A program made the position numbers and the translations under genes. Below the pieces are notes generated by a model. It worked only from the letters and a program-made list of their open reading frames with translations. It ran no database searches and was not told the origin of the DNA. This document shows positions 27,775-45,680 of a stretch of DNA of 64,000 bases, piece by piece; the stretch's first letter is position 1; each line of letters starts with the position of its first letter. Source of the stretch: Deltaproteobacteria bacterium RIFCSPHIGHO2_02_FULL_40_28 (lineage in GTDB: Bacteria; UBA10199; 2-12-FULL-40-28); contig MGRJ01000024.1 of the NCBI GenBank assembly GCA_001798135.1, positions 1 to 64,000 on the forward strand, written 5' to 3'.

Positions 27775-27815
27775 GTATATCCATTTGTTTTTATTAGATA
27801 AATTTGGGTCAGAAG

Positions 27816-27827: not shown

Positions 27828-28601
27828 CTTGATTTTTCGACATTGAAAGGCAAGGTAGTTCTTATCACAGGAGGCTTTGGCCAAATTGGTGAAGCTTTGG
27901 TGTCTGCTTTTCTTAAATCTGGTTCTTTTGTTTATATTTCGGATATCGAAAATAAAGAAGATGTAGAAAAAAAGTGGAGGAAAATTTCAGATCAGTTTGT
28001 CTTTGTGAAATCAAGTATCCACAATAAAAAAGATGTAGATCATCTTTTAAAAACCGTTATTCAAAAAATGGGACGCTTAGATGTGCTGATTAATAACGCC
28101 TATCCTCGTAATAAAAATTATGGAAGACCATTAGAAGAAATTGAATGGGATGATTTTAACGAAAATGTACAAATGCATTTAGGCGGTTATTTTTTACTTT
28201 CACAAAAGGCTTCTGAAATTATGAGAAAACATACGGGAGGAAGTATTATTAATTTGGGTTCTATCTATGGAATGGTGGCTCCTCGTTTTAGTATTTATGA
28301 AGGAACCTCAATGACCATGCCCGCTGAATATGCTGCTATTAAGGGAGGTGTGCTCCAGCTTACTCGTTATCTGGCTACTTACTTGGCACCTTATGGAATA
28401 AGAGTAAATGCTGTTTCTCCAGGCGGCCTTTTCAATGGGCAAAATTCTCGCTTTGTTAAAAGTTACGAAGCGGAGGTACCTTTGGGAAGAATGGCTACAC
28501 CCGATGACGTGGTAGGGCCTATTCTTTTTTTAGCAAGTGATTTGGCAAGCTATATTACTGGTCAAAATATTGCTGTAGACGGAGGTTGGACTACGTGGTG
28601 A
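27825..28601 (+). CDS. SDR oxidoreductase, PtmA-like
   Basis: The 258-residue short-chain dehydrogenase has the cofactor motif TGGFGQIGEAL, the NNAYPRN segment, the catalytic Ser in NLGSIYG and YAAIKGG as YxxxK. The C-terminal DVVGPILFLASDLASYITGQN and VDGGW are classical SDR features. It heads an operon encoding legionaminic acid synthesis, where Campylobacter carries the SDR PtmA. That gives the tentative assignment; the substrate is unknown. ATG27825 is chosen because the protein then starts just before the first strand. Its ribosome site is the AAGGGCGG that forms part of the ops element. Confidence 0.8.
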   Translation: MLDFSTLKGKVVLITGGFGQIGEALVSAFLKSGSFVYISDIENKEDVEKKWRKISDQFVFVKSSIHNKKDVDHLLKTVIQKMGRLDVLINNAYPRNKNYGRPLEEIEWDDFNENVQMHLGGYFLLSQKASEIMRKHTGGSIINLGSIYGMVAPRFSIYEGTSMTMPAEYAAIKGGVLQLTRYLATYLAPYGIRVNAVSPGGLFNGQNSRFVKSYEAEVPLGRMATPDDVVGPILFLASDLASYITGQNIAVDGGWTTW

Positions 28602-30762: not shown

Positions 30763-31813
30763 CCCACTTTTATTTATATTAGAAAATATTTCCATCAAGC
30801 AAGCCTGGCGTCAATTAGATGAAAATGGCTACAAAATTCTTTTGGTTACAGATAAAATACAAAAACTTTTAGGTTCTGTTACCGATGGGGACATTAGGCG
30901 TTGGATTCTCAAAGATAAATCAATAATGGAACCCATTTCGAATGTAATGCGTACCACTCCTATTGTGGCAAAAGATACTGATAGCCCCAAGGTTATTAGA
31001 AAATTACTTCTCGATAATCGCATTGATTGTGTTCCTGTGGTGGATGAAAATCTTAAAGTAGTTAAGCTTATTTTTTGGGATGATATTTTTAGAAATGGTG
31101 AAAATAATATTATCGAAAAAATAAATAGCCCTTTGGTTGTGATGGCAGGGGGCAGAGGGACAAGGCTTGATCCTTACACTAAAATTTTACCCAAACCTTT
31201 AATTCCTGTTGGCGACAAACCCATTATCGAAGAAATTATGGATCGTTTTTATCACTACGGAATAAGCCAATTTTTTATTTCCATCAATTATAAATCCGAA
31301 ATGATTAAGGCTTATTTTCAAGAAAGGCAACTTGCTTTTAAAATTGAGTTTGTCAAAGAAGAAATCCCCTCTGGTACAGCAGGCTCTCTTTCTCTTCTGA
31401 AGGGAAAAATTAAAGACACTTTTTTTGTTACTAATTGTGATGTTTTGGTTAATGCAAATTATGCCGATATTTTCAAATTTCATCGGGAACAAAAAAACAA
31501 AATTACTCTTGTTTGTTCCATGAAGCATTTTACCATTCCCTATGGTGTAGTTGATATTGGAGCTGGTGGAAGTTTACAGGGAATTGTAGAAAAACCAGAA
31601 CATGACCACTTGGTTTTAACTGGTGTTTACGTTTTAGAGCCGGAACTTCTCGAACTTATTCCACAGTCTTCTGTTTTTCATATTACCCACTTGATTGAAA
31701 AAATACACAGGGAAGGATTAAAAGTAGGAGTTTACCCCGTGGCTGATCGAGCCTGGGTTGATATTGGCGAACTTGATCATTATCAAGAAGCATTAAAGAA
31801 CATACGTTTTTGA
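30752..31813 (+). CDS. ptmE: PtmE-like nucleotidyltransferase with CBS domains
   Basis: Residues 1 to about 120 form a CBS pair (VTDGDIRRWIL, RIDCVPVVDE). The rest is a sugar-phosphate nucleotidyltransferase with MAGGRGTRLDPYTKILPKPLIPVGDKPIIE. The same architecture is found in Campylobacter PtmE, which makes GDP-GlcN for the legionaminic acid pathway. Its presence argues that this pathway uses GDP-linked rather than UDP-linked intermediates. The CBS pair may sense a nucleotide, but that is inference. It overlaps legC by 11 nt and the next gene by four bases. Confidence 0.85.
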   Translation: MELNPLLFILENISIKQAWRQLDENGYKILLVTDKIQKLLGSVTDGDIRRWILKDKSIMEPISNVMRTTPIVAKDTDSPKVIRKLLLDNRIDCVPVVDENLKVVKLIFWDDIFRNGENNIIEKINSPLVVMAGGRGTRLDPYTKILPKPLIPVGDKPIIEEIMDRFYHYGISQFFISINYKSEMIKAYFQERQLAFKIEFVKEEIPSGTAGSLSLLKGKIKDTFFVTNCDVLVNANYADIFKFHREQKNKITLVCSMKHFTIPYGVVDIGAGGSLQGIVEKPEHDHLVLTGVYVLEPELLELIPQSSVFHITHLIEKIHREGLKVGVYPVADRAWVDIGELDHYQEALKNIRF

Positions 31814-32754
31814 ATTCCAAAGGGACAATTTTAATTACGGGTGCAACTGGTTTTGTGGGATCTCACCTTGTCAATCGGTTGCTCTCATTGGGTTACCTGG
31901 TTCTTGCTACTGTGCGAGATCTAGATCAGTGTGGAAATCATCCCATTATTCGTCATTCGATTTCACAGAAAAATCTCATTCTTTTCCAGAGCGATTGGGA
32001 AGAAAACCCCCTCGTTTTAGAAAAAGCCATATCTAAATTTAAGATTGATGGGCTCATTAATTGTGTGGCCAAACAACCAAGACCCAATTTGGGTTTGAAG
32101 GATTATGAAAAGGTGAATGTTCATACCCTGAAAAATATTTTTGAATTTGCTTCTCGCATTGGTTCTAGGGTTTTTATTACTTTTTCCAGTGCTACTGTTT
32201 ATGCTCCTTCCCTTGGCACGTTGATTCATGAGGGAAGCCCCGTTAATCCTGTGAGTGATTATGCTAAAAGTAAACTTAAAGGCGAATTAATGCTCTCTGA
32301 AATTTCTGCTCATTTAAATTTAGCAACCTACAATTTTAGACTTCCATCTGTTTATGGTTATGGTCAAGAAGGTGGCATTGCCCATACCTATTATGTGTTT
32401 GCAAAGGCCCATGAATCTATCGAAGTTTATTCGAATGGAAAACTCATTCGCAATATTCTCTATATCGATGATCTTGCCAATTTGTGTGAGACAGTTTTAA
32501 GTAAACCAGCAAAAAATGGATATTGTTCCTATCTTTTTGGCAGTAAAAATTCACTGAGTATGGAGGCTATTGCTGGACTTTTTGTTAAATATCTTTCCTC
32601 CAGATCACGTATTCTTTTAGTTGAAAAAGAAGCCCCAGTTCCTTTGGATTGGAATCTTGATTTAACCAAAATTCAAAAAGATTTGAGAGCCAAATCACGA
32701 ACAATTGAAGAGGGAGTGAAAGACTATATTCAAGCCATGGAGATGAGGTCATGA
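31810..32754 (+). CDS. NAD-dependent sugar epimerase/dehydratase (extended SDR)
   Basis: The 314-residue protein has TGATGFVGSHL at the N-terminus, a Ser/Thr active-site strand FSSATVYAPS and YAKSK as YxxxK. This is a typical nucleotide-sugar epimerase, dehydratase or reductase. Sequence alone does not decide the reaction: the Glu expected of a 4,6-dehydratase is absent after the serine pair, which favours epimerase or 4-ketoreductase. TTG31810 overlaps the upstream stop. Together with the following aminotransferase it may serve a second amino sugar distinct from legionaminic acid. Confidence 0.75.
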   Translation: MNSKGTILITGATGFVGSHLVNRLLSLGYLVLATVRDLDQCGNHPIIRHSISQKNLILFQSDWEENPLVLEKAISKFKIDGLINCVAKQPRPNLGLKDYEKVNVHTLKNIFEFASRIGSRVFITFSSATVYAPSLGTLIHEGSPVNPVSDYAKSKLKGELMLSEISAHLNLATYNFRLPSVYGYGQEGGIAHTYYVFAKAHESIEVYSNGKLIRNILYIDDLANLCETVLSKPAKNGYCSYLFGSKNSLSMEAIAGLFVKYLSSRSRILLVEKEAPVPLDWNLDLTKIQKDLRAKSRTIEEGVKDYIQAMEMRS

Positions 32755-33890
32755 AATATACAATGGCTTATCCTTATTTCCCCAAGGAGGATATTCCTCA
32801 AATACTCCAAGAGGTTCGGGATATTTTAGAGGGAAACAATCCCCTAAGTATGGGACCCAAGGTAGCAGAGTTTGAGAAAGCCTTTGCTGCTTATTGTGGA
32901 GTTCGTTTTGCAGTGGCCACAAATTCCTGTTCTGCAGCCCTAGAAATTTCATTGCGGTCTCTTGGATTAAAACAAGATGATGAAGTGATTGTGCCCATTG
33001 AAACTTTTTTTTCAACGGGAGCATCTGTTTTAAGAGAGGGGGGAAAAATTAGTTTTGCAGGAATTGATCCCCAAACTTTTTGTCTCTCGTTAAATGAAAT
33101 CAAAAAAGTTTTTACTACAAAAACTAAAGCCATAATTTTGGTGCATATGGCAGGGCTTGTAACTCCAGAAGTAGAAGACATTGCAGATTTTTGCAGGCAG
33201 AAAGGCATTGCCTTGATTGAAGATGCAGCCCACGCTCCAGGTGCTAGCTTTAATGGAAAAAAATCAGGATCTTTTGGAAATATGGCTTGTTTTTCATTCT
33301 ATCCAACTAAAATCATGACAACGGGTGAAGGAGGGATGATTGTTACAAACGATGAAGGGCTTTATCAGCAGGCCAATAGTTATCGTCATCGAGGGAGAGA
33401 TATGGCAGCCCCGGAAGAATGCTATCGTTATTTGGGTACCAATAATCGCATGACTGAAATCCAGGCTATTTTAGGATTGGTCCAACTCAAAAATCTTGAA
33501 AATTTTATCACAACACGAAATAAAATCGCTCAAATTTATAATCAGGTTTTTCAAAAAAGTGGTGTGAGTCATTTTATTCCCGTACTGCCTGATTCCCGTT
33601 GTTTTCATGCCTATTGGCGGTACGTAGTCAAAATATCCGAACATATTGATCGTAAAAAATTAAGGGAACTTGTTTTACAGAAGGGCATAGCTCTTGATTG
33701 GGCTTACGATCCTCCGTTGCACCGCCAGCCTTTTTTCAAAAATTTATCCTCAGATGTTAAAGAAAGACTAGCTTCTTCTGAAAAAATCATGAAAAATTTT
33801 ATTTGTCTTCCCATTCATTCATGCATGAAAGAAGAAGAGGCGCATTTTGTAGTTTATGAATTGATTGAATCCTCCAAATCTCTTTTATGA
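32751..33890 (+). CDS. DegT/DnrJ/EryC1-family sugar aminotransferase
   Basis: This is a second PLP-dependent sugar aminotransferase in the operon, 379 residues long. The Schiff-base lysine is in FYPTKIMTTGEGGM, and LIEDAAHAPG and YLGTNNRMTEIQAILG are further family motifs. It differs clearly from LegC, so it probably aminates another keto sugar, perhaps the product of the SDR just upstream, with which it overlaps as ATGA. The exact position aminated cannot be told. Confidence 0.85.
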   Translation: MKYTMAYPYFPKEDIPQILQEVRDILEGNNPLSMGPKVAEFEKAFAAYCGVRFAVATNSCSAALEISLRSLGLKQDDEVIVPIETFFSTGASVLREGGKISFAGIDPQTFCLSLNEIKKVFTTKTKAIILVHMAGLVTPEVEDIADFCRQKGIALIEDAAHAPGASFNGKKSGSFGNMACFSFYPTKIMTTGEGGMIVTNDEGLYQQANSYRHRGRDMAAPEECYRYLGTNNRMTEIQAILGLVQLKNLENFITTRNKIAQIYNQVFQKSGVSHFIPVLPDSRCFHAYWRYVVKISEHIDRKKLRELVLQKGIALDWAYDPPLHRQPFFKNLSSDVKERLASSEKIMKNFICLPIHSCMKEEEAHFVVYELIESSKSLL

Positions 33891-34579
33891 AAATAATTAC
33901 TATCCATCAGCCCCAGTATATTCCCTGGCTTGCTTATTTTGATAAAATTTTAAGATCAGATGAAATGATTCTTTTGGATGATGTGGCTTTTCAAAAAAAC
34001 GGAGTGCAAAATAGAAATCAAATCAAAACAGCGGGAGGGGCTTTGTGGCTGACAGTGCCGGTTTCCCAGCATTTGGGGCAGTTAATTAATCAGGTAGAAG
34101 TTTCTGATACTCAGGTGTTTGGAAAACATCTTAAAACTTTGAGCCAAAATTATTCAAAGGCTCCTTTTTATGGTGAAGTCATGGATTTTGTAGGTCCTAT
34201 TTTGGAAAAAAGTTTAAAAAATTTATCCCAATTAAATAATGAACTCATGAGCCGTATTCTTTATTACTTGGATTACAAGGGGTCTGTGCTTCAATCTTCT
34301 GAGATGAAGGTAGAGGGTAGTGGGAGTGAGTTGATTTTAAATCTTTGTAAAAATCGATGCGCCAATATTTATATTTCAGGTTCTGGTGGTAAAAATTACA
34401 TGAATTTGGATGATTTTAAGGAAGCTCAGGTGCAAGTTGTTTTTCAAAAATATCAATCTCCTTCTTATAATCAGCTTCATCCCAAAGTAGGTTTTATTCC
34501 TGATTTATCCATTCTTGATTTATTGTTTAATGAAGGGCAAAAAAGCAAAAGTATTATTGAAAGCGGGAGGATCCACTGA
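33887..34579 (+). CDS. WbqC-family protein
   Basis: The 230-residue product begins with IHQPQYIPWLAYFDKI, the signature of the WbqC-like family, and later has YISGSGGKNYM. WbqC-like proteins recur in O-antigen and capsule clusters; their activity is poorly defined, with roles in amino-sugar decoration proposed. No membrane segment is visible. The start overlaps the aminotransferase stop as ATGA, and its own end overlaps the legG gene. Confidence 0.82.
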   Translation: MKIITIHQPQYIPWLAYFDKILRSDEMILLDDVAFQKNGVQNRNQIKTAGGALWLTVPVSQHLGQLINQVEVSDTQVFGKHLKTLSQNYSKAPFYGEVMDFVGPILEKSLKNLSQLNNELMSRILYYLDYKGSVLQSSEMKVEGSGSELILNLCKNRCANIYISGSGGKNYMNLDDFKEAQVQVVFQKYQSPSYNQLHPKVGFIPDLSILDLLFNEGQKSKSIIESGRIH

Positions 34580-35733
34580 AACATATTTTGGCTGTTACTG
34601 GTATTAGATCCGAATATGATATTCTTTCTTCGGTTTTTAAAGCCATTACTGCCAGGAAAGATTTAAAACTTTCCTTGATTGTTACAGGAGCCCATCTTTC
34701 AAAAAAGTTTGGATACACCATTGATGAAATTAAAAAAGATGGTTTTAATATTATTGCATGCATTGAAAGCCTTATAGACTCCGATGCCGATGTGGATCGC
34801 TTGAAGGGAGCTGCTATTCAATTGAAGGGTTTGGCAGAAACAGTTGATAGAGTGAGGCCTGATTTGATTTTGGCTTTTGGAGATAGAGAAGAGGCCATTA
34901 CAACAGCGTTAACAGGAAATTATCTTAATATACCTGTTGTTCATATTTCTGGAGGGGATAGGGTTATTGGCAATGTAGATGATCAGATTCGTCATGCGGT
35001 GACCAAACTTTCTCATTTTCATTTAACCACGAATGAAGAAAGCTTTGAGCGTATTTTAAAAATGGGTGAACAAGAATTTCGTGTTTTCAATGTGGGTCAT
35101 CCAGGTTTAGATCGTATTGCGAGTGAACCCCAGATGTCAAAACAAGAGCTTCTTTCATGGTATGGATTTGAATCAAACGATACTACCTCAAAGCTTTTGG
35201 TGGTGATTCAACATGTTATTTCTACAGAAATTAATGAATCTTATTCTCAAATGAAAAAAACCATGGAAGCTATTTTATCTCTTAAGTTGAATACAGTCAT
35301 TTCTTATCCCAACTCTGATGCAGGATCTTTAAGTTTAATAAAATGCATTGAAGAGTACAGACATTTGCCTTTTATAAAAATTCATAAAAATGTTCCCCGT
35401 TTTCAATTTGTAAATACCTTAAGGCATGCCTCTTGTCTTGTCGGCAACTCATCAGCAGGCCTTATGGAAGCTCCTTTTTTAAAATTAGCAGTGGTTAATG
35501 TGGGAAATAGGCAATTGGGAAGGCTTCATGCCATGAATGTGGAATTTGTTCCCCACGATCAAAATGGAATTAAAAAAGCCATCCAAAAAGCTTGCCATGA
35601 TAAAGATTATCAAAAAAAATTGCTTCAATGTCCTTCTCCTTATGGAGATGGCAGGGCCTCCGAAAAAATTGCCGATTTTTTTTCAAACCTTAAATTAGAT
35701 CAAAAAGTCCTCTTGAAGGATTCTACTTATTAG
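34576..35733 (+). CDS. legG: LegG, hydrolysing NDP-sugar 2-epimerase
   Basis: LegG removes the nucleotide from the di-N-acetylated sugar and inverts C2, giving the 6-deoxy-ManNAc derivative used by LegI. The family pattern TGIRSEYDIL, FGDREEAITTAL, HISGGDRVIGNVDDQIRHAVTKLSH and VGNSSAGLMEAP is complete. The first ATG/GTG/TTG codon in frame, TTG34588, lacks a spaced ribosome site. CTG34576 sits 5 nt after GGGAGG (34565-34570), restores the expected KHILAVTG N-terminus and overlaps the upstream stop as CTGA. A CTG start is therefore proposed (385 residues). Confidence 0.87.
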   Translation: MKHILAVTGIRSEYDILSSVFKAITARKDLKLSLIVTGAHLSKKFGYTIDEIKKDGFNIIACIESLIDSDADVDRLKGAAIQLKGLAETVDRVRPDLILAFGDREEAITTALTGNYLNIPVVHISGGDRVIGNVDDQIRHAVTKLSHFHLTTNEESFERILKMGEQEFRVFNVGHPGLDRIASEPQMSKQELLSWYGFESNDTTSKLLVVIQHVISTEINESYSQMKKTMEAILSLKLNTVISYPNSDAGSLSLIKCIEEYRHLPFIKIHKNVPRFQFVNTLRHASCLVGNSSAGLMEAPFLKLAVVNVGNRQLGRLHAMNVEFVPHDQNGIKKAIQKACHDKDYQKKLLQCPSPYGDGRASEKIADFFSNLKLDQKVLLKDSTY

Positions 35734-35749
35734 TTTATTAATATATTTT

Positions 35750-37897
35750 ATGACTCAAAAAAGCCATAGCCATCAGCCTCTTAAGGTTTATCTGTGCGAT
35801 TTAACTCACGACACGGTTATTCTTGTTTCGGATACCATTCCCATTAATATTGGTTTTATTGGCGCATATGCCAACAAAATACATGGCAAAAATATTGAGC
35901 TTTCTTTTTTTAAGTATCCCAACACCGTCATTCAAGCCATTAAAGATAACCCGCCCGACGTAATTGCCTTAAGTAATTATTCTTGGAATAGCAATTTGTC
36001 TGAAATGATGGTGGGCTTGGCCAAGAAGTACAATCCAAATGTGGTTACTATCCAGGGTGGCACTAATTTTCCTCACGACAATGAATCGCAGTTAAGTTTT
36101 TTAATGAAGCGTCCCAACACCGATGTTTATGTTGAGCTTGAAGCTGAAGTGGCTTTCTCAGAGCTGCTGACAAAAATACTCGATGCGCGGGATGGTGGGG
36201 CTTCTTTATTTGATGGAACAGAAATGCCTGGCTGTGTTTATCTTGTTCCCTCTGCGCGGCATTCGGCCAATCCTGTTTTTGTCAAGGGCCAGATGCCAGT
36301 TCGTGTTCGTGAGTTGGATGATATTCCTTCGCCTTATCTTAATGGCATGCTCGATTCTTTTTTTGATGGCAAACTAACCCCGTTTTTAGAAACCAATCGT
36401 GGTTGTCCCTTTTCTTGTACTTTTTGTCATACAGGCAACGAGTATTTTAACAAGATTAATATGTTTTCTATGGAGCGTGTGAAGGAAGAAATTCTTTATA
36501 TTGCTCCCAAAATGGCTGAACGTGGCATTGTTAATCTGCATCTGGCTGACACTAATTTTGCCATGTATCCGCGCGACAAAGAAATATGCGAGGTGCTTCT
36601 TGAAACACAAAAAAAATATGGGTGGCCACGCCAAGTGATGGCCACAACGGGTAAGAATAGTAAAGAGCGCGTCATTGAGATTACTTCTATCATGGGGAAT
36701 ACTTTTTCTGTGAACATGTCGGTTCAATCCATGGACCCAAGCGTACTTAAAAATATCAATCGTTCCAATATTAAACTTAATCACTACATGGAAATTAACA
36801 AGCAGCTCAACGCAACAGGTCGGGCTACTAAGGGTGAAGTTATTATTGGCTTGCCAGGAGAGACCCGCCAATCCTTTGTGCATGGGCTGCAACAAATTCT
36901 TGAGGCCGGCACAAGTACCATTTGTTGTTATTCGCTTATGTTGTTGCATGGCACCCGTTTTAAAGAGCCAGCATATCGTGAAGAGTTTCAAATTAAGGGC
37001 AAGTACCGCATTGTTCCCTTAAACTATGGGGAATATGACGGAGACAGGATTTTTGATATTGAAGAAACCGGCATTGCCAATAAAGACATGTCTTTTGACG
37101 ATTATCTGTGGATAAGGCGCTTGAGTTTGATGATCGAAGTTTTACATAACAGCCGGCCTTTTCATGAGTTGTTTAAGTACGTGAGCAGTTACGAGTATTC
37201 ACTTTTCGATTTTATCATGCGCGTTAATGATTCTTTTGACAGTGCTCCCGAAAAAGTAAAAGAAGTTGTTAATGGGTTTCTTAACGAAACCAAGGGTGAA
37301 CTGTGGAATTCTGAAGAAGAACTGGTTGCTCATTATCGCCGTGACGAAAATTACAATCGTCTTCTCAAGGGAGAAGTAGGGGGTAATATCATTTACAAGT
37401 ACAAGGCCATGAGCCTGGCGTTTTATAACGAAGCCTGGGTTGATTTTATTGCCCAAATTTGCCAGAAAATTTTAAGTGAAAAAATACAAAACCCAGAAGC
37501 ACAACAAAAAGCTTTCGAGGATATTAATCTTTTGGCTGTCTATGTAAAAAATAAACTTAAAGGTTTGCTCAATGTTCATGGTGAGGTGGCTCCTTCTTCA
37601 ATGACGAGTCCCTATGATATTCAAACTTGGTCCAAGAGCCAAGACGGACTTGCTTTAAATGCGTTTAAATTTTTGGAACCCATTCAGTATGAGTTTGAGT
37701 ATTCAGAAGGGCAGTTGGCTGAAAGAACCGATCTCTTTAAGCGTTACGGAACTCATGCCAATGCCTTAAGTAAAATTGTCACTAGGGTGAGTAATGTGGA
37801 GAGCCTTTTCCGAAAAATTAATATCCATGGTGCACATCAAAAAGAAGGCCCGGAAAATAAAGTGGATCAATTTATTCGGTATACTTTATCCAATTAA
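35750..37897 (+). CDS. Radical SAM protein with N-terminal B12-binding-like domain
   Basis: The 715-residue protein has an N-terminal Rossmann-like region (VYLCDLTHDT, then DVIALSNYSWN), laid out like cobalamin-binding domains but without a visible DxHxxG. The radical SAM core follows, with C219-xxx-C223-xx-C226 in RGCPFSCTFCHTGNEYF. About 300 residues follow the core. It probably generates a 5'-deoxyadenosyl radical for a C-H modification or methylation in this glycan pathway. It is followed after 5 nt by a PIG-L deacetylase and then HisH/HisF-type amidation genes. Substrate unknown. Confidence 0.8.
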   Translation: MTQKSHSHQPLKVYLCDLTHDTVILVSDTIPINIGFIGAYANKIHGKNIELSFFKYPNTVIQAIKDNPPDVIALSNYSWNSNLSEMMVGLAKKYNPNVVTIQGGTNFPHDNESQLSFLMKRPNTDVYVELEAEVAFSELLTKILDARDGGASLFDGTEMPGCVYLVPSARHSANPVFVKGQMPVRVRELDDIPSPYLNGMLDSFFDGKLTPFLETNRGCPFSCTFCHTGNEYFNKINMFSMERVKEEILYIAPKMAERGIVNLHLADTNFAMYPRDKEICEVLLETQKKYGWPRQVMATTGKNSKERVIEITSIMGNTFSVNMSVQSMDPSVLKNINRSNIKLNHYMEINKQLNATGRATKGEVIIGLPGETRQSFVHGLQQILEAGTSTICCYSLMLLHGTRFKEPAYREEFQIKGKYRIVPLNYGEYDGDRIFDIEETGIANKDMSFDDYLWIRRLSLMIEVLHNSRPFHELFKYVSSYEYSLFDFIMRVNDSFDSAPEKVKEVVNGFLNETKGELWNSEEELVAHYRRDENYNRLLKGEVGGNIIYKYKAMSLAFYNEAWVDFIAQICQKILSEKIQNPEAQQKAFEDINLLAVYVKNKLKGLLNVHGEVAPSSMTSPYDIQTWSKSQDGLALNAFKFLEPIQYEFEYSEGQLAERTDLFKRYGTHANALSKIVTRVSNVESLFRKINIHGAHQKEGPENKVDQFIRYTLSN

Positions 37898-37902
37898 ATT
37901 TT

Positions 37903-38586
37903 ATGTCAAAAAAAATTCTTGTTGTAGCTCCCCATCCAGACGATGAAACTTTAGGTGTTGGTGGCTCCCTGTTTGGTCATAAAAACCAGGGGCATTCTAT
38001 TCACTGGCTTATCATGAGCGAGGCTACAAAAGAAGTTGGTTTTTCGGACGATTTTATTCGTCAAAGAAAAACAGAAATAAAACAGGTTTCTTTGCTCTAT
38101 GGTTTTGCTTCGACAACGGAGCTCCCTTTTCTAGCAACCCGGCTTGATACTTACCCCATGGGAAAAATGATTGAAGAAGTTTCTAAGGTTTTTCGAAAAA
38201 TAGAGCCCGAAATTATTTATCTTCCCCACTATGGGGATGTGCATTCGGACCATCGTATTACTCACCAAGTTGTTGCTGCTTGTTGTAAGCCATTTCGGTT
38301 TCCTTTCATTAAAAAAGTTTTAGCTTATGAAACCCTTTCTGAAACTGATGCTGCCCTTCCTTCGGTTAATGGCTCTGTTTTTTTACCAAATGTTTTTGTT
38401 GATATTTCCAAAACACTAGAAAAGAAAATTGAAGCTCTTACGTTGTACAAATCTGAATTGGCTGCTCACCCTTTTCCCAGAAGCCACGAATCTGTGAAGG
38501 CCCTAGCTCGGTTGCGGGGAGCCGCTTCCAATTTAGCTTTTGCTGAAGCCTTTATGCTCCTCCGGGAAATTAGTTTATCTTCCTAA
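37903..38586 (+). CDS. PIG-L/LmbE-family sugar N-deacetylase
   Basis: The 227-residue protein has the metal-binding PHPDDETLG near the start and YGDVHSDHRITHQ in the middle, the two zinc-ligand motifs of the PIG-L family. Members remove acetyl groups from GlcNAc-type amino sugars, for example in GPI, mycothiol and glycan synthesis. No membrane segment is present, so it is likely cytoplasmic and acts on a soluble or nucleotide-linked sugar. Placement between the radical SAM gene and the HisH-like gene suggests it exposes an amine for further modification. Confidence 0.87.
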   Translation: MSKKILVVAPHPDDETLGVGGSLFGHKNQGHSIHWLIMSEATKEVGFSDDFIRQRKTEIKQVSLLYGFASTTELPFLATRLDTYPMGKMIEEVSKVFRKIEPEIIYLPHYGDVHSDHRITHQVVAACCKPFRFPFIKKVLAYETLSETDAALPSVNGSVFLPNVFVDISKTLEKKIEALTLYKSELAAHPFPRSHESVKALARLRGAASNLAFAEAFMLLREISLSS

Positions 38587-38595
38587 AAAAATTAA

Positions 38596-39225
38596 ATGGG
38601 ACTAACCATTACCATTGTTGATTATGGCATGGGCAATTTAAGTTCAGTTAAGAATGCCTTTGACCACATTGGCGTGCAATCAACCGTTACCAACAAAATT
38701 GACGATTTAAAAAATGCCAGAGCCATTTGTTTGCCTGGAGTGGGTGCTTTTGGCGAAGCGATGACTAATTTAAAAAATCTGAATCTTGTGGACGAACTAA
38801 CCTATCAAGTTGTTCATCAAAAAAAACCTTTTTTGGGTATTTGTTTGGGCATGCAGTTGATTGCAGAAAGTTCCGAAGAAAATGGTTTGCACAAAGGTTT
38901 GGGTTGGATAGATGGCAAGGTTCTTAGAATTCAAACGGATGCCAAACTGCGTCTCCCACATATCGGTTGGAACGATTTACATTTCCCGCGTCAGTCGTTT
39001 TTGTACGAGGGTATGGGCCCTGACAAAAATTTTTATTTTGTGCACAGCTACCAAATGGTTTGTGATCCTCAATGGGTTACGGCGTCTTGTGAGTACGGTG
39101 GGCTTGTAACAGCATCTGTGCAGAAAGAAAATATGGTAGCTACTCAGTTTCATCCTGAAAAAAGTCACGCTAACGGCATGCTTGTTCTTCGTAATTTTAT
39201 CAAATACGCAACTTCTCTATGTTGA
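38596..39225 (+). CDS. hisH: HisH-type glutaminase subunit in a glycan module
   Basis: This class I glutamine amidotransferase releases ammonia from glutamine. The 209-residue protein shows DYGMGNLSSVKNAF, LPGVGAFGEAM, the nucleophile in GICLGMQL and the catalytic His-Glu in QFHPEKS. It is of the HisH type, but no other his genes are present. It is immediately followed by a HisF paralogue and two N-acetyl-sugar amidotransferases. In Pseudomonas and Campylobacter, HisH and HisF paralogues feed ammonia to WbpG/PseA-type enzymes, so that role is inferred. It overlaps the next gene by seven bases. Confidence 0.87.
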   Translation: MGLTITIVDYGMGNLSSVKNAFDHIGVQSTVTNKIDDLKNARAICLPGVGAFGEAMTNLKNLNLVDELTYQVVHQKKPFLGICLGMQLIAESSEENGLHKGLGWIDGKVLRIQTDAKLRLPHIGWNDLHFPRQSFLYEGMGPDKNFYFVHSYQMVCDPQWVTASCEYGGLVTASVQKENMVATQFHPEKSHANGMLVLRNFIKYATSLC

Positions 39226-40031
39226 AGTATCGGCTTATTCCTGTTTTAATTCTTAAAAACGATCGCCTTGTTCAAAGTATTCAGTTCAAACGTTACCTGC
39301 CCATTGGTGGAGCAAAAATTGCAATTGAATTTTTTGTTAACTGGGATGTCGACGAAATTGTTCTCTTGGATATTGATGCAACGTTAAAAAAACGTCAACC
39401 CCAGTTTGACCTCATTTCATTTTTTGCACGGAAATGTTTTGTGCCTTTCACAGTTGGGGGTGGCATTAGTAGCCTTGATGATATTCGTAATGTGATTAAA
39501 GCAGGAGCTGACAAAGTGTGTTTAAATACTGCTGCCATCCGATTCCCAGAACTTATTACCCGTGGTGCCGAGCGCTTTGGCACCCAATGTATTACCATTT
39601 CCATCGATGCTAAAAAAAATTCGCAAGGTGAGTACGAGGTTTATCTTCTCTCTGGGAAAGAGCCTACGGGCATGCATCCGGTGGAGTGGGCTCAAAAAGT
39701 AGAAGCGCTTGGTGCGGGGGAGATCCTGTTGACTTCAATTGAGAGGGATGGTACCAAACAGGGCTATGATTTAGAGCTTACCCGGCAAGTTGCACAGGCT
39801 GTAAGTATTCCAGTTATTGCCTGTGGGGGTGTTGGTCGGATGGAACATTTTGTAGAAGGCATTCTTAAAGGAAGCGCTCATGCTGTGGCCGCTGCCAATA
39901 TTTTTCAGTACACAGAACACAGTACTATCATCGCTAAAGCCTATCTCAAAAAAGCCAATATTGATATTCGCCTTTCTTCCGATGTGACTTATGAAGGATT
40001 TACCATCGATGAAGCAGGGCGTATAACCTAG
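39219..40031 (+). CDS. hisF: HisF-like ammonia-channelling subunit in a glycan module
   Basis: A (beta/alpha)8-barrel protein of the HisF family, 270 residues. Family motifs are VGGGISSLDDIRNVIKAGADKV, ITISIDAKKN and ACGGVGRMEHF. The first-strand Asp of true HisF (IPCLDV) is replaced: here the strand reads IPVLILKN. The second catalytic Asp, in ISIDAK, is kept. Loss of one catalytic residue fits a protein that channels ammonia rather than making imidazole glycerol phosphate. Position beside the amidotransferases supports this. It overlaps the HisH-like gene. Confidence 0.85.
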   Translation: MLKYRLIPVLILKNDRLVQSIQFKRYLPIGGAKIAIEFFVNWDVDEIVLLDIDATLKKRQPQFDLISFFARKCFVPFTVGGGISSLDDIRNVIKAGADKVCLNTAAIRFPELITRGAERFGTQCITISIDAKKNSQGEYEVYLLSGKEPTGMHPVEWAQKVEALGAGEILLTSIERDGTKQGYDLELTRQVAQAVSIPVIACGGVGRMEHFVEGILKGSAHAVAAANIFQYTEHSTIIAKAYLKKANIDIRLSSDVTYEGFTIDEAGRIT

Positions 40032-40041
40032 AAAGAACTCT

Positions 40042-41334
40042 ATGCAATACTGTACACGTTGCCTTTATCCAGAAAATCACCCCATTGGCATTACTTTTGA
40101 TGACCAAGGGGTTTGCAGTGGTTGCCGTGTGCATGAAGAAAAAGACGGCGAAATAAACTGGGAAGAACGGTTGGTAGAATTAAAAACCCTTGTTGACCAG
40201 TACCGCAGTAAAAATAAAAAAGGTTATGATTGTGTGATTCCTGTTAGTGGTAACGGCGATAGTTATTTTGTGACTCATATCCTGAAAAAAGTTTTGGGTC
40301 TTAACCCTCTGTTGGTAACTTACAACATCCAGTACAACACTAAAATTGGCATTCGTAATTTGGCTAATCTTTTAACCAAGCTAGATTGCGACCATCTTCA
40401 GTACACGGTTAATCCCAATCTGGTTAAAAAAATCACTTGGTTGGCCATGCACAAAATGGGTGACATGTACTGGCATTGTTTGGCAGGCGAGCAAACTTTT
40501 CCTGTTCAAATTGCCACCAAAATGGAGATTCCACTTATTGTATGGGGGGTTAATGGCTGGTTGGATCAGGTGGGGATGTTTTCTCATTGGGACAAAGTTG
40601 AAATGACTAAAAAAGTACGCAAGGAACATGGGCTTCGGGGCTTTGATGCCGAATTAATGAGTGACCCAACAACGGGCATTACCCCCAAAGTGATGCAAGC
40701 CTTTATTTATCCGAAGGATGAGGAGCTTGAAAAAGCTCATGTGCGTGGCATTTACTTGGGAAATTTCATTCGGTGGGATGCACAAAAACAAACTGAATTG
40801 ATGATTAAACTTTATGGTTATGAAACTACTGATCAAGAACGAACTTTTAACAAATACGAAACTGTTCACTGTCATTTCAATGCGGGCACTCACGATTACA
40901 TTAAATTTTTGAAGTATGGTTATTCTAAGGTTTATGATCATGCTGCACGTGATATCCGGCTTAAACGCATAATACGCGAGCAGGGCATTAAACTTGTGAA
41001 GGAATACGAAACAAAGCGTCCTCAAGATTTAGATCGATTTCTCGAATGGGTTGGTATGACTGAGAAGGAATTTTTGGACTGTCTTGACTCCCACCGCGAC
41101 CCCCGCATGTGGGAAAAAAATGAGAAGGGTGAATGGAGCCGCAAGGATTCTGTTGTAAATCACATCAAGGACAAGGGGATTGATGTTGTTCGCCTCGATC
41201 TTACTGATCCTCATCCGTATGTTAAAACGCCAAGCCGCGAGCCAGGCCTTGATGACAAACTCATTTTAACGGGGCGCATCTACATGAATGAAAGAAATGA
41301 GTACGCCGTATCTAGTGAAGAGGAACAAAAATAA
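40042..41334 (+). CDS. N-acetyl-sugar amidotransferase homologue with degenerate PP-loop
   Basis: This 430-residue protein belongs to the WbpG/PseA amidotransferase family. It has paired Cys motifs YCTRC (residues 3-7) and CSGC (25-28), likely a zinc site. Its ATP-binding PP-loop reads PVSGNGDSYF (SGNGDS at 69-74) where active members have SGGKDS, so the lysine and a glycine are missing. It may be regulatory, catalytically altered or specific for a different donor. The adjacent gene has the intact motif. The C-terminus extends past the second protein's end. It starts 10 nt after hisF and ends on the first base of the next gene. Confidence 0.82.
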   Translation: MQYCTRCLYPENHPIGITFDDQGVCSGCRVHEEKDGEINWEERLVELKTLVDQYRSKNKKGYDCVIPVSGNGDSYFVTHILKKVLGLNPLLVTYNIQYNTKIGIRNLANLLTKLDCDHLQYTVNPNLVKKITWLAMHKMGDMYWHCLAGEQTFPVQIATKMEIPLIVWGVNGWLDQVGMFSHWDKVEMTKKVRKEHGLRGFDAELMSDPTTGITPKVMQAFIYPKDEELEKAHVRGIYLGNFIRWDAQKQTELMIKLYGYETTDQERTFNKYETVHCHFNAGTHDYIKFLKYGYSKVYDHAARDIRLKRIIREQGIKLVKEYETKRPQDLDRFLEWVGMTEKEFLDCLDSHRDPRMWEKNEKGEWSRKDSVVNHIKDKGIDVVRLDLTDPHPYVKTPSREPGLDDKLILTGRIYMNERNEYAVSSEEEQK

Positions 41335-42440
41335 TGAAGTACTGTAACCGTTGTGTGATGCCCGATACGAAGCCTGGTGTTCGCATTGATGAAAAGGGTG
41401 TGTGTAGTGCGTGCCGTGCTGTGGAGGCAAAAAAATTAATTAATTGGGAAGCCAGACACGAAGAACTCAAGCAAATTTGTGAGGACATTAAGCGAACCAA
41501 CACCTCATGTTACGATGCCATCGTGCCTGTTAGTGGAGGGAAGGACAGTCAGTATCAAGTTTGGATGATGAAGGAAGTATTTAAAATGAATGTGCTGTGC
41601 GTGTGTTTTTCTAATCATCTGCCAACTGAAGAAGGTATTTATAATCTCAATCAAATGGTTGAGGCCTATGGCGTTGACCTTGTAAAGGTAAATGTTAAAA
41701 ACAGCGCATATCGAAAACTGCGTCGTAAAGCTTTTTTTCAAATTGGCGAACCATCGTGGGCAGAACATTGCGGGGTTTTTTCTTCAGTGGCTAATGTGGC
41801 ACTCATTTACAATGTTCCCATCATTATGTGGGGTGAAGATATTGCCGTCGAATTTGGGGGCAAAACATCCAAAGTTCGTAAAGCAGATGCGCGCGATATT
41901 AACCGCAATGATCTTATTAAAGGAAAAAATGTTATCGAATGGTGCGATGAAGATATTTTAGAGTCCGATGTTTTTTTCTTCAAGTATCCAGCCATGGAAG
42001 AGTTTGAAAAAAGAGGAATTAAAAGCTTGTATCTAGGTTATTACCATAATTGGGATGGCAAACTTCACTATGAGCATGTTCAAAAATATGGTTTTCAGCC
42101 TCGGAAAAAAGGGCCGTTAAAAGGCAATTACCTTCATTACGACAATATCGATGAAAAACTCTGTGAGATTTGTATTTGGCTCAAATACATTAAATTTGGT
42201 TTTTGGCGGCCAACAGATCAGTGTTGTTATCAAATCTGGAATGGTCGCATGACGCGAGCTGAAGCGGTAAAAATTGTCAACGAATTAAGCTCCCAATTTC
42301 CAGATGAGTATTTTCAGGACTGGCTCGACTACCACATGATAACCGAAAATCAATTTTGGGAAGTTGTCGAAAAATACAGGAACAAAAATATTTGGGAAAA
42401 GATTGGTGGGGAGTGGCGTCTTAAGTATCCCCTGATATGA
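41334..42440 (+). CDS. N-acetyl-sugar amidotransferase (WbpG/PseA type)
   Basis: The enzyme is expected to activate a sugar acetamido group with ATP and replace its oxygen with nitrogen from HisH/HisF, giving an acetamidino group. The 368-residue product has the Cys pairs YCNRC (3-7) and CSAC (24-27) and an intact PP-loop PVSGGKDSQYQ (SGGKDS at 67-72). The downstream conserved part includes HCGVFSSVANVA and YLGYYHNWDGKLHYEHVQKYGF. It is in tandem with a homologue whose PP-loop is altered. The acceptor may be a legionaminic acid intermediate, by inference. Confidence 0.87.
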   Translation: MKYCNRCVMPDTKPGVRIDEKGVCSACRAVEAKKLINWEARHEELKQICEDIKRTNTSCYDAIVPVSGGKDSQYQVWMMKEVFKMNVLCVCFSNHLPTEEGIYNLNQMVEAYGVDLVKVNVKNSAYRKLRRKAFFQIGEPSWAEHCGVFSSVANVALIYNVPIIMWGEDIAVEFGGKTSKVRKADARDINRNDLIKGKNVIEWCDEDILESDVFFFKYPAMEEFEKRGIKSLYLGYYHNWDGKLHYEHVQKYGFQPRKKGPLKGNYLHYDNIDEKLCEICIWLKYIKFGFWRPTDQCCYQIWNGRMTRAEAVKIVNELSSQFPDEYFQDWLDYHMITENQFWEVVEKYRNKNIWEKIGGEWRLKYPLI

Positions 42441-43081
42441 AAAGACAACAAATTATTTTAATTGGCGGAGGTGGTCACGCTAAAGTGATTATTGATGCCA
42501 TCCAAGCTGGTGAAAAATGGGAAATTGTTGGAGTAATCGATGCAGAGCTTCCCCTGGGTTCAAAAATTGCCGATATAGAAATTATTGGTCGCGATGAGGA
42601 TGTTTTAAAAATTTATAAGAAGGGTATTACTCACGCTTTTATTTCCGTTGGTAGTGTTGAGTCTACGGCTATTCGACGCAAACTTTGTCTCAATTTAAAA
42701 GAAATAGGTTTTAAGTTACCGATTATTATTCATCCATCTGCTCAAGTGTCTTCTTTTGTTACTATCGCAGAAGGAACTTTTATTTCGGCAGGGGCTATTG
42801 TCCAATCAGGAAGTTTTATCAAAGAAAATGTCATCATTAATACAGGGGCCATTGTCGATCATGATTGCTGCATTGGTCAGTTTGCCCATCTTGCACCAGG
42901 AGTTCGTTTAAGTGGAGAAGTGATTATTGGGGATGATACCCTCATTGGTACAGGGACTTCGGTAAAACAAAACATGACCATTGGTCATCATTGTATCATT
43001 GGTGCTGGAAGTGCGGTTGTTTCTCATATCCCTGACAATTCTAAAGCCTACGGTAACCCGTGCCGTATTCATCCTTCATGA
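42437..43081 (+). CDS. legH: LegH/NeuD-type sugar N-acetyltransferase
   Basis: The 214-residue protein has a nucleotide-sugar-binding N-terminal domain (IILIGGGGHAKVIIDAI) and a C-terminal left-handed beta helix of hexapeptide repeats (about 100-210) ending in AYGNPCRIHP. This is the PglD/NeuD/LegH layout. The catalytic base is expected in IVDHDCCIGQFAHLAPG. In this context it probably acetylates the 4-amino group made by LegC. It overlaps the upstream and downstream genes by four bases each. Confidence 0.85.
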   Translation: MKRQQIILIGGGGHAKVIIDAIQAGEKWEIVGVIDAELPLGSKIADIEIIGRDEDVLKIYKKGITHAFISVGSVESTAIRRKLCLNLKEIGFKLPIIIHPSAQVSSFVTIAEGTFISAGAIVQSGSFIKENVIINTGAIVDHDCCIGQFAHLAPGVRLSGEVIIGDDTLIGTGTSVKQNMTIGHHCIIGAGSAVVSHIPDNSKAYGNPCRIHPS

Positions 43082-44109
43082 AACCTGTTTTTATTATTGC
43101 CGAAGCTGGAGTTAATCATAATGGTAATTTTGATTTAGCTTTAAAAATGGTAGAGGTAGCCAAGGAATGTGGTGCTGATGCCATTAAGTTTCAGACTTTT
43201 CAAGCCGAATCACTCGTAGATACTCATGCCCAATTAGCCGATTACCAAAAAAACAATCTTAAAAATAAAACTATTTCACAATATGAAATGTTAAAAGCTC
43301 TTGAGCTTTCTAAAGATAATTTTATTAAACTAAAAAAGAAATCCGACCAAGTTGGTATTTATTTTTTATCTACTCCTTTCGATGAAGAATCAGTTGGTTT
43401 CTTAGAGCCCTTAGTGAATGCTTTTAAGATTTCATCAGGAGATTTAACTCATTATCCCTTACTCAAAAGGGTTTCACAGGGTGATAAACCTGTTATTCTT
43501 TCTACGGGGATGTCTGATTTAGAAGAGGTAAGAAGGGCTTGCCAAGTTTTTTATGGACACAAGTGCAAGTCGGATATTTTAAATCCATTAACTCTCTTGC
43601 ATTGTACAACTAATTATCCTGCATCCTTTGCCGAGGTTAATCTTTTAGCCATGAAAACTCTTAACCAAGAATTAAAGTTATCTGTAGGGTATTCGGATCA
43701 TACTGTAGGTTGCGAGGTGGCCTTAGCAGCTGTAGCTATGGGCGCCTCAATGATTGAAAAACATTTTACTTTGGATTCTTCTATGGAAGGGCCAGATCAT
43801 AAAGCTTCACTTGATCCACTAGCCTTAAAACAATTTATAAAAATAATTCGCGAAATAGAGTTGGCTCTTGGAGATGGTATTAAAAAGCCTATGAATTCTG
43901 AATTGTCCAATCGAAAAATAGCAAGAAGAAGTCTTTATTATTCCAAAAAAATAGATGCTGGCTCTAAAATTTCTGAAAAAGATTTGATAGTCAAACGTCC
44001 TGCCATTGGTCTTAACCCTTTTGATTGGGATAGTATTGTTGGAAAAACTTTAAAAAAATCTGTTAACAAAGATGCGTTGGTGGAGAAAGAAGATTTTGCG
44101 GAGGATTAA
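43078..44109 (+). CDS. legI: LegI, N,N'-diacetyllegionaminate synthase
   Basis: LegI condenses phosphoenolpyruvate with the 2,4-diacetamido hexose to form the nonulosonic acid. The NeuB-family barrel starts EAGVNHNGNFDLAL and has DAIKFQTF, ISSGDLTHYPLL, HCTTNYPA and GYSDHTVGCEVALAA. A C-terminal antifreeze-like SAF domain (about 285-343) follows, as usual. With legB, legC, legH, legG, legF and ptmE in the same operon, the legionaminate assignment is stronger than sialate. ATG43078 overlaps the legH stop as ATGA. Confidence 0.92.
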   Translation: MKPVFIIAEAGVNHNGNFDLALKMVEVAKECGADAIKFQTFQAESLVDTHAQLADYQKNNLKNKTISQYEMLKALELSKDNFIKLKKKSDQVGIYFLSTPFDEESVGFLEPLVNAFKISSGDLTHYPLLKRVSQGDKPVILSTGMSDLEEVRRACQVFYGHKCKSDILNPLTLLHCTTNYPASFAEVNLLAMKTLNQELKLSVGYSDHTVGCEVALAAVAMGASMIEKHFTLDSSMEGPDHKASLDPLALKQFIKIIREIELALGDGIKKPMNSELSNRKIARRSLYYSKKIDAGSKISEKDLIVKRPAIGLNPFDWDSIVGKTLKKSVNKDALVEKEDFAED

Positions 44110-44985
44110 TTGAAAATTGTTATTTTTGGATTGGGCTCTATTGGATTAAGGCATGCTGGTCTTCTGAAGGAGTATGGTGGTCATGAAATAGTTGCCTTTC
44201 GTACGCTGGGTTCTAAAAATGCCATTAATCTAAAAGAAATTTTTAGCTGGGATGAGTTGGATCAATTTAAACCCGAGCTTGCTGTTATTTGTAATCCCAC
44301 CTCTTTACACATTAAAACAGCCATTGAGTGTGTAAAAAGGGGAGTCTTTTTATTCTTGGAGAAGCCCATTGGTTCTAGTGAAGAAGGTCTTGATGAGTTA
44401 GTAGAACTAGTCCAAGCTAAAAAATTAACCACCTATGTGGCTTATATTCTAAGATTTCATCCTGCTATTGCCGAATTAAAGGAAAAAATCAGAAAAGAAA
44501 AATTACTGCATTGTAGAATGGTGTGTTCTTCTTTTTTGCCAGATTGGAGAAAGGGGAGTGATTATAAAAAATCTTACTCAGCTTCAAAGAAAGAAGGTGG
44601 TGGTGTTTTGTTAGATTTATCTCACGAACTTGATATGGCAGACTATCTTTTTAATGGAGTAAAAACCATTGAAGGAAAATTAGGAAAGGCTAGCTCTCTG
44701 ACGGTAGATTCTGAGGATTATGCTGATTTAATTCTTTCTACCTCAGCATGCCCTGTTTCTATTCATCTAAATTATTTCAGCCATCAAACCAAACGTTCAA
44801 TTTTTATCGATACAGAAAGTAATGTTTTTGAAGTGGATTTAATTTCTGGTGATCGTGATGCTTTGTACAAGCGTCAGTGGGATTATTTTTTTGATAATAT
44901 TCGTAATCCAAAAATGATGAATAATTTAATTGAAGCAGCACCTCTTTTTAAACAAATGATTCATTTTAAAGAGAAGGCCTTATGA
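44110..44985 (+). CDS. Gfo/Idh/MocA-family oxidoreductase, PtmF-like
   Basis: The 291-residue protein begins with the Rossmann motif FGLGSIGLRHAGLL and has CNPTSLHIKTA and FLEKPIG, the family's conserved lysine motif. GGGVLLDLSHELDMADYLF lies in the C-terminal domain. Oxidoreductases of this type accompany legionaminic acid genes in Campylobacter (PtmF). The reaction is not certain and the name is by position only. It starts with TTG directly after the legI stop and overlaps the legF start. Confidence 0.78.
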   Translation: MKIVIFGLGSIGLRHAGLLKEYGGHEIVAFRTLGSKNAINLKEIFSWDELDQFKPELAVICNPTSLHIKTAIECVKRGVFLFLEKPIGSSEEGLDELVELVQAKKLTTYVAYILRFHPAIAELKEKIRKEKLLHCRMVCSSFLPDWRKGSDYKKSYSASKKEGGGVLLDLSHELDMADYLFNGVKTIEGKLGKASSLTVDSEDYADLILSTSACPVSIHLNYFSHQTKRSIFIDTESNVFEVDLISGDRDALYKRQWDYFFDNIRNPKMMNNLIEAAPLFKQMIHFKEKAL

Positions 44986-45680
44986 ATATTTTAGTAACCA
45001 TTGCAGGTCGTGGGGGATCCAAGGGGGTTCCAGATAAAAACATAAGACCTCTTGCAGGCAAGCCCCTTATTGCTCATAGCATTGAGCAAGCCAAAAAATG
45101 GGGAAGGGCTAAGCATATTGTTGTTAGTTCAGATTCTCAGAAAATTATAGAGGTAGCAAAAAAGTATGGAGCCCTTGCTCCCTTTGTAAGGCCAAATGAA
45201 TTGGCAGGGGATACAGCTGATAAATTATCTGTTATCCGTCATGCTTTAGAGGAATCTGAAAAGAAGTATGAAACGAAGTATGATTTAGTTGTTGATATGG
45301 ATATTACAGCCCCCTTACGGAAAAAGAATGACCTTGAAAATATGTATCAACTTTTCATTCAAAAAAAACCAAAACTTATTTTTAGTGTCGTGACCGCACA
45401 TAAAAATCCTTATTTCAATATGGTGGAACTAGAAAATGGTGTTGCCAGGCTATGTAAACATCTTAATTCTCCGATTACAAGAAGGCAGGATGCTCCAAAA
45501 GTATATGCCATGAATGCCTCGCTTTATTTTTATCACCCCGATTTTCTTAAAACTAACCCCAAAAGCCTTTTTACAGATCAAACTCTGATTTACGAGATGG
45601 ATGATGTTTCAGGTATTGATATCGATCGTGAAATTGATTTTCAGTTGGTGGAATTTTTAATGCAGAAAGGGCTATGTTAG
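44982..45680 (+). CDS. legF: LegF, CMP-legionaminate cytidylyltransferase
   Basis: The enzyme activates the nonulosonic acid with CTP, giving the CMP-sugar donor. The 232-residue product has the NeuA/LegF signature AGRGGSKGVPDKNIRPLAGKPL, the metal site around DLVVDMDITAPLR and QDAPKVYAMNASLYFY. It closes the legionaminic acid pathway begun at legB. The four-base overlap with the previous gene and a seven-base overlap with the next keep it in the operon. It could accept related nonulosonic acids. Confidence 0.9.
   Translation: MNILVTIAGRGGSKGVPDKNIRPLAGKPLIAHSIEQAKKWGRAKHIVVSSDSQKIIEVAKKYGALAPFVRPNELAGDTADKLSVIRHALEESEKKYETKYDLVVDMDITAPLRKKNDLENMYQLFIQKKPKLIFSVVTAHKNPYFNMVELENGVARLCKHLNSPITRRQDAPKVYAMNASLYFYHPDFLKTNPKSLFTDQTLIYEMDDVSGIDIDREIDFQLVEFLMQKGLC

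Follow-up and report, generated by a model that had tools for sequence, protein, structure and literature searches.

What would a cobalamin-dependent radical S-adenosylmethionine (SAM) protein do in the middle of a gene cluster for a sialic-acid-like sugar? The question is raised by six genes at positions 35750-42440 of the window, a 64,000-nucleotide stretch of contig MGRJ01000024.1 from Deltaproteobacteria bacterium RIFCSPHIGHO2_02_FULL_40_28, whose 31-contig, 2.16-Mb assembly represents a phylum with few sampled members (46 genomes). All six lie on the + strand and encode, in order, the radical SAM protein (rSAM), a PIG-L deacetylase, HisH, HisF/WbuZ, and two N-acetyl-sugar amidotransferases, WbuX1 and WbuX2. 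Many bacteria and archaea carry nonulosonic acids (NulOs) on their outer surface, and the decorations known for these sugars include N-acyl, amidine, N-methyl, and O-acetyl groups. We conclude that the gene set is a variant of an acetamidino-legionaminic acid cluster whose novel element is an rSAM resembling TokK and CysS. We consider it fairly likely that the six genes form a decoration cassette in the guanosine diphosphate (GDP)-route legionaminic acid (Leg) pathway, working as proposed here through amidine formation, de-N-acetylation, and C-methylation by the rSAM.

Open reading frame (ORF) calling and Pfam/NCBIfam families returned the six genes with the coordinates and order given in an earlier note on this DNA, and the spacings inside the cassette (+5, +9, -7, +10, and -1 nt) agree with the 5- to 10-nt gaps or overlaps that it described. 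The outer junctions measure +16 nt (NeuC to rSAM) and -4 nt (WbuX2 to NeuD). By gene content, the cassette is not free-standing but inserted within a full GDP-route Leg cluster, between legG and legH/neuD. LegB, LegC, LegH/NeuD, LegG/NeuC, LegI/NeuB, and the LegF cytidylyltransferase were all found; LegB, LegC, NeuC, NeuD, and NeuB exceeded the curated NCBIfam cut-offs, and the cytidylyltransferase matched a model only below its cut-off. Together with PtmE- and PtmA-like genes, they substantiate the NulO setting that the earlier note had proposed.

The rSAM (35750..37897, + strand) has an N-terminal B12 domain (PF02310) and a radical SAM domain (PF04055), and among proteins of solved structure it is closest in sequence to TokK (4.5e-48) and CysS (1.2e-37). 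Its W79 is aligned with Trp76 of TokK; Trp75/76 is the residue beneath the cobalamin in TokK and CysS (PMC12846815). W79 and the cysteines of the CX3CX2C motif (C219, C223, and C226) are invariant in 31 members of the rSAM family. An AlphaFold2 (AF2) model with a predicted local distance difference test score (pLDDT) of 90.1 matched TokK (template modeling [TM] score, 0.71-0.78) and CysS (0.66-0.78) over the whole length, including the C-terminal domain; OxsB, TsrM, and AprD4 were weaker fold matches, far below these two. The three-domain fold, B12 domain, CX3CX2C motif, and lower-face Trp are thus common to the rSAM and the C-methylases TokK, CysS, and KedN5 (PMC12846815, PMC9692996), but the rSAM is only ∼20-23% identical to them in structural alignments, and it resides in glycan clusters, whereas they reside in antibiotic clusters. 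Judged by sequence, lower-face Trp, cysteine motif, and predicted fold, the rSAM is most likely a TokK/CysS-type cobalamin-dependent C-methylase. These matches make methylation of an unactivated carbon the most likely chemistry; we infer this chemistry, and likewise the substrate and the methylation site. The same rSAM family is present in marine archaeal contigs (L015 and L021), and two-copy B12-rSAM loci occur among L005, L016, L033, and L126.

The comparison sample for the rSAM consists of the matches listed from a pattern scan, and the counts that follow are indicative and give lower bounds (at least the number stated). A tree of 75 proteins contained a 51-row clade with the window rSAM and glycan-locus members (Shimodaira-Hasegawa-like approximate likelihood ratio test [SH-aLRT] support, 99), within which the window rSAM grouped with those of L046, L120, and L019 with a support of 100. 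The closest orthologues among the matches listed, two from Elusimicrobiota (66% and 64% identity) and one from an alphaproteobacterium (55%), are all found in Leg-type clusters, adjoining or near legC, wbuX, or neuC. NeuB or NeuC was encoded within 10 kb at 17 of the 37 clade loci with adequate flanks, compared to none of the 24 loci outside the clade (p = 6e-5). Sugar-nucleotide genes are about equally near in both groups (23/37 clade loci versus 14/24 sister B12-rSAM loci), and even among the loci with such genes, NeuB/NeuC accompanied 12 of 23 in the clade and 0 of 14 outside it (p = 9e-4). In one genome, G735, the rSAM match begins ∼60 bp past the NeuB match. HisH/HisF/WbuX genes are near the rSAM in nine loci (L006, L007, L014, L120, L128, L130, L131, L135, and L138) and farther along the rSAM contig in G047, G567, and G660.

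PIG-L (37903..38586, + strand; PF02585) shares the fold family and the HPDD and H-x-D-H metal motifs (HPDD, residues 11-14; HSDH, residues 114-117) with BshB/LmbE/PIG-L de-N-acetylases (2ixd and 1uan). Unlike BshB1 and BshB2, it falls below the bacillithiol deacetylase cut-offs (BshB1, 70 versus 182 bits; BshB2, 41 versus 195 bits), and its genomic partners are NeuB and NeuC, up to a fusion: in genome G037, from the window's class, a single 622-amino-acid ORF (L156:1686-3554) joins NeuC (residues 37-384) to a PIG-L domain (residues 406-527) that is 50% identical to the window PIG-L. NeuB is near PIG-L in all 10 Elusimicrobiota genomes with a match and in 7 of 11 other genomes of the window's class. 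On the basis of this gene neighborhood, the window PIG-L is one of a group of deacetylases associated with NulO genes, and it is NeuB and NeuC rather than the rSAM that regularly accompany it.

A formyltransferase gene adjoins or lies near PIG-L in L120 (7410-8345), L228, L230, L235, L241, and L243, mostly NulO clusters, with values of 45% (L228) and 42% (L230) for the formyltransferase beside PIG-L; this proximity suggests a deacetylate-then-formylate pair. 5-N-formyl-Leg is a known sugar, and in the corresponding cluster of Halorubrum sp. PV6 the formyltransferase gene is beside LegG and NeuD (PMC6137143), as it is in the PIG-L-bearing L120, L228, and L230. The PV6 sugar, with a non-acetyl group on a NulO nitrogen, resembles the product proposed here, but PIG-L is not described in the PV6 cluster (PMC6137143), and no formyltransferase relative turned up near the window cassette. 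In the simplest reading, PIG-L would free a NulO nitrogen for another substituent. A WbqC gene is near PIG-L in the window and in L155, L158, L159, L229, L234, and L240, mostly with no formyltransferase nearby. As mutually exclusive partners of PIG-L, the two showed a tendency only (both in 1 case, formyltransferase only in 9, WbqC only in 6, neither in 8; p = 0.17), and this idea was dropped.

A glutaminase, a channel subunit, and an N-acetyl-sugar amidotransferase are adjacent, in keeping with the amidine-forming genes that the earlier note had recognized. HisH (38596..39225, + strand) matches TIGR01855 above the cut-off (243 bits). The HisF-type ammonia-channel subunit (39219..40031, + strand) is of the WbuZ/AglZ-HisF2 kind (WbuZ, 287 bits, cut-off 300; AglZ/HisF2, 248 bits, cut-off 310). 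WbuX1 (40042..41334, + strand) and WbuX2 (41334..42440, + strand) score 369 and 379 bits with TIGR03573 (cut-off 203). By these family assignments, HisH/HisF/WbuX is the known acetamidino system: all three components of the WbpG/WbuX/PseA-HisH2-HisF2 synthases (AglZ/HisF2, WbuZ, and TIGR03573; PDB 8wex) are present and adjacent. Unlike those systems, the window has two diverged WbuX proteins, one of which lacks the PP-loop Gly and the acidic motif residue.

The earlier note had taken this pair for a duplicated amidotransferase. The two are not copies of one another: they are 28% identical and belong to separate tree lineages, and a simple tandem duplication was rejected on these grounds. WbuX1 pairs instead with the WbuX1 of an alphaproteobacterial locus (L198:7580-8920; SH-aLRT, 99). 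All 33 other WbuX proteins in the collected set have Gly as the third residue of the PP-loop and an acidic residue, Glu or Asp, at the last position of the WGE-like motif. WbuX2 is canonical on both counts, with an intact SGGxDS PP-loop (SGGKDS) and WGE, whereas the window WbuX1 has SGNGDS and WGV and the L198 WbuX1 has SGARDS and WGA. These two proteins also have a C-terminal extension in common, and each is directly followed by a canonical WbuX. A single-sequence structure prediction of WbuX1 was too poor for use (pLDDT, 35). The motif changes suggest that WbuX1 has diverged and acts beside WbuX2 as an altered, probably non-ATPase subunit. Elsewhere, the final PP-loop residue is Gly rather than Ser (SGGKDG) in WbuX proteins of L196 (4808-5896), L143, and L191.

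Does the gene set recur? In an Elusimicrobiota genome, G234 (L120), the genes run NeuB, NeuC, formyltransferase, PIG-L, NeuD, HisF, HisH, WbuX, rSAM, PtmE-like protein, dehydratase, and LegC-like aminotransferase. The rSAM, PIG-L, HisF, HisH, and WbuX are thus together again in a Leg-type cluster, although their order is shuffled. The alphaproteobacterial genome G660 (L198) has HisH-HisF-WbuX1-WbuX2 in the window's order, with a clade rSAM 12 kb away and NeuB/NeuC on the same contig. Genome G037 has PIG-L, NeuB, PtmE-like and PtmF-like genes, HisF, HisH, and two WbuX genes, with no rSAM match. On the conserved adjacency that the earlier note had proposed to check, L120 and L198 support recurrence elsewhere; strict rSAM-PIG-L adjacency is not kept (no PIG-L match in G046 and G047, no rSAM match in G037). 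We rejected such adjacency as a conserved trait and regard the two genes as loosely tied.

The earlier note had also suggested acquisition as a unit, citing GC counts in two rows of sequence. Those counts are right (30 of 60 bases in 41041-41100 and 14 of 60 in 59041-59100), but a single 60-base row is no evidence. Because the overall GC content of the cassette is near the genome mean (0.409 versus 0.398), GC content at third codon positions (GC3) and codon use were taken as the test; overall GC as proof of transfer was dropped, as 6.7-kb blocks sampled from the genome are equally high in 25% of cases. The six cassette genes have GC3 values of 0.31-0.41, compared to 0.23-0.30 for 15 long genes of the flanks (Mann-Whitney p = 4e-5). 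When a codon-usage classifier was run with each gene left out in turn, 6/6 cassette genes fell with the module (PIG-L only marginally, +3.3 bits) and 15/15 flanking genes with the flank. The codon distance of the module from the genome was 0.213, compared to a maximum of 0.181 among 500 random sets of genome genes and to 0.175 for the AT-rich right flank. Among the 45 other genomes of the class, just one has a relative of the rSAM (29% identity; the class is here the phylum set of 46 genomes), and none was found in genomes of the same order. Together, the codon signature and the location of the nearest rSAM orthologues in other phyla support horizontal transfer, and the six genes were probably acquired together, as GC3 and the classifier would have it. 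The composition thus differs from that of the flanks, and the two outcomes that the earlier note held would undo its proposal, flank-like composition or rSAM and PIG-L genes that are not neighbors elsewhere, were looked for with no refutation. Plasmid and phage searches did not find the module; plasmid relatives of the rSAM are at most 33% identical, with no NulO annotation in the neighborhood of one (L003), and for WbuX1, two relatives turned up on plasmids and none in phages.

In the pathway that we propose, the flanking genes would make a diacetamido sugar, then Leg, and then cytidine monophosphate (CMP)-Leg. HisH would free ammonia from glutamine, HisF would channel it, and WbuX2, as an ATP-dependent PP-loop synthase, would convert one N-acetyl group into acetamidine; the divergent WbuX1 would be the partner of WbuX2, probably no longer capable of ATP chemistry. 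PIG-L would strip a further N-acetyl group, in all probability at about the NeuC stage, to give an amine that stays free or is acylated anew. The rSAM would place at least one methyl on an unactivated carbon, either in the sugar itself or in the N-acyl or amidine group that the sugar carries. The most likely product, as read from the genes, would derive from CMP-Leg and bear an acetamidine, one nitrogen stripped of its acetyl group, and an added C-methyl; we infer its identity, the step order, the modified positions, the number of methyls, and the role of WbuX1. Among the closest known systems are the Leg5Am7Ac/Leg5AmNMe7Ac clusters of Campylobacter and Legionella (LegB/C/H/G/I/F, the amidotransferase PtmG, and the N-methyltransferase PtmH; PMC3766260, PMC13317340), which are alike in the Leg core, the amidine genes, and an adjacent methylating gene. 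Acetamidino-Leg is known to be methylated on nitrogen, by PtmH/ORF8 (PMC3766260, PMC13306086). In the window, by contrast, the methylating gene would be a cobalamin-dependent rSAM rather than PtmH, hence the prediction of a C-methyl and not an N-methyl product, and PIG-L and the second, divergent WbuX are extra. None of the six cassette genes is annotated as PtmH, although no PtmH-directed search of the cluster was made. The rSAM may make the C-modified amidine envisaged by the earlier note, which is just one of several candidate sites of methylation; for N-methylation there is better precedent in PtmH, a different enzyme (PMC3766260).

Several points weigh against this proposal. The rSAM clade was assigned after the tree had been seen, and the bit-score split of an earlier version was likewise set post hoc; the genomes compared are mostly drafts or assembled from metagenomes. 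Neither the window, with the surroundings of the cassette, nor the 60 kb beyond it yielded a formyltransferase relative, and the rSAM-bearing genomes G046 and G047 gave no PIG-L match at 1e-15. The rSAM is independent of the amidine genes, too, being present in G046, in which no WbuX was found. Within the protein, the score with the NCBIfam KedN5 model (NF033712) is 207 bits against a cut-off of 700, and TokK W215, which lies two residues after the last Cys and serves SAM/cobalamin juxtaposition, corresponds to T228; this position varies between class B enzymes and is Glu/Asp in 18 and Trp in 4 of 31 family members. The Thr leaves room for non-methylating or TsrM-like chemistry, so the rSAM might perform another cobalamin-dependent radical reaction on the sugar, such as rearrangement, ring contraction, epimerization, or dehydration. 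Some B12-rSAMs indeed do not methylate (PMC9692996), and OxsB and AprD4 are among the weaker fold matches, but the only near-full-length, high-TM matches are to the iterative C-methylases TokK and CysS and all 31 family members have the lower-face Trp, which makes such a reaction quite unlikely. Unlikely too, but deserving more weight, is the idea that the rSAM methylates another sugar or a lipid carrier of the glycan locus, its adjacency to Leg genes merely reflecting that envelope genes sit together. At 20 of the 37 clade loci among the matches listed, NeuB/NeuC is not found within 10 kb; clusters may hold two rSAM family members; and the C-methyltransferase gene at 52673-53932 makes other C-methylated sugars plausible. 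Yet the closest orthologues listed, from three phyla including the window's, are all in Leg-type clusters, the G735 rSAM match begins ∼60 bp past a NeuB match, and the sister rSAMs, equally near sugar genes, are near NulO genes in none of 24 listed cases.

The remaining alternatives concern the other genes. The locus could be an ordinary acetamidino-Leg cluster of the Campylobacter/Legionella kind, in which PIG-L and the rSAM are unrelated passengers: the full Leg5Am7Ac gene complement is present, and HisH/HisF/WbuX genes in Leg clusters with no rSAM are common in the class (L154 and L156). We find this improbable in view of the NeuC-PIG-L fusion and the repeated adjacency of NeuB/NeuC and PIG-L, the reunion of the rSAM, PIG-L, HisF, HisH, and WbuX in another phylum, and the single codon signature of all six genes, weak as it is for PIG-L. 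Similarly small is the chance that WbuX1 and WbuX2 are both active, on two N-acetyl groups, to give a bis-acetamidino NulO. Side-by-side canonical WbuX proteins, both with SGGKDS, do occur in L156 of the window's class, but the window and L198 WbuX1 proteins are without the third PP-loop Gly and the WGE acidic residue, each of which the 33 others keep.

The genes around the cassette from 27804 to 45680, all on the + strand, lie in a surface-glycan region that spans 25.7-64 kb of the window and, from its translations, holds glycosyltransferase-, flippase-, and sugar-nucleotide-like genes. Upstream are a PtmA-like short-chain oxidoreductase (27804..28601; PRK09186, 271 bits, cut-off 255; PtmA, 186 bits, cut-off 350), the NAD-dependent 4,6-dehydratase LegB (28586..29599; TIGR04180, 504 bits, cut-off 475), and the aminotransferase LegC (29599..30762; TIGR04181, 480 bits, cut-off 420). 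They are followed by a PtmE-like nucleotidyltransferase (30752..31813), putatively activating the GDP-route precursor, in which the models match residues 129-349 after an N-terminal stretch; the protein is probably of the PtmE type, with a putatively CBS-like N-terminal part. Next are a second DegT/PseC-like aminotransferase (32751..33890; PF01041), the WbqC family protein (33887..34579; PF08889), and, last ahead of the cassette, the hydrolyzing 2-epimerase NeuC/LegG (34588..35733; TIGR03568, 386 bits, cut-off 236). Downstream, the NeuD/LegH-type hexapeptide acyltransferase (42437..43081; TIGR03570, 210 bits, cut-off 161) precedes the synthase NeuB/LegI (43078..44109; TIGR03569, 441 bits, cut-off 400), which starts at ATG 43078 (the listed ORF starts at GTG 43060). 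A Gfo/Idh/MocA oxidoreductase (44110..44985; PF01408), presumably PtmF-like, and a LegF/PtmB-type CMP-NulO cytidylyltransferase (44982..45680; best NCBIfam model PseF, 147 bits, below the cut-off of 206) follow. A GMC-type oxidoreductase (45674-47296) comes immediately after this CMP-sugar synthetase gene, and a conventional sugar C-methyltransferase (PF08421/PF13489/PF08484) is encoded in the same glycan region at 52673-53932.

In a full-text search of the open literature, with subscription papers and most preprints outside its reach, no paper naming a radical SAM protein with legionaminic or nonulosonic acid was found. A B12-rSAM methylase family, horizontally spread over bacterial phyla and marine archaea, may build C-methyl-branched NulOs, possibly iteratively (acetyl or acetamidine to propionyl or isobutyryl); we advance this broader proposal tentatively, at a little short of an even chance. 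The NeuC fusion gives one group of PIG-L deacetylases a candidate pathway role, and the locus brings to light a putative paired pseudo-amidotransferase, WbuX1. The recurrence of a B12-dependent radical methylase in NulO clusters predicts carbon-bound methyl branches and ties cobalamin to surface-glycan chemistry. If the proposal is true, C-methyl-branched NulOs would be a class of sialic-acid-like sugars with no earlier report.

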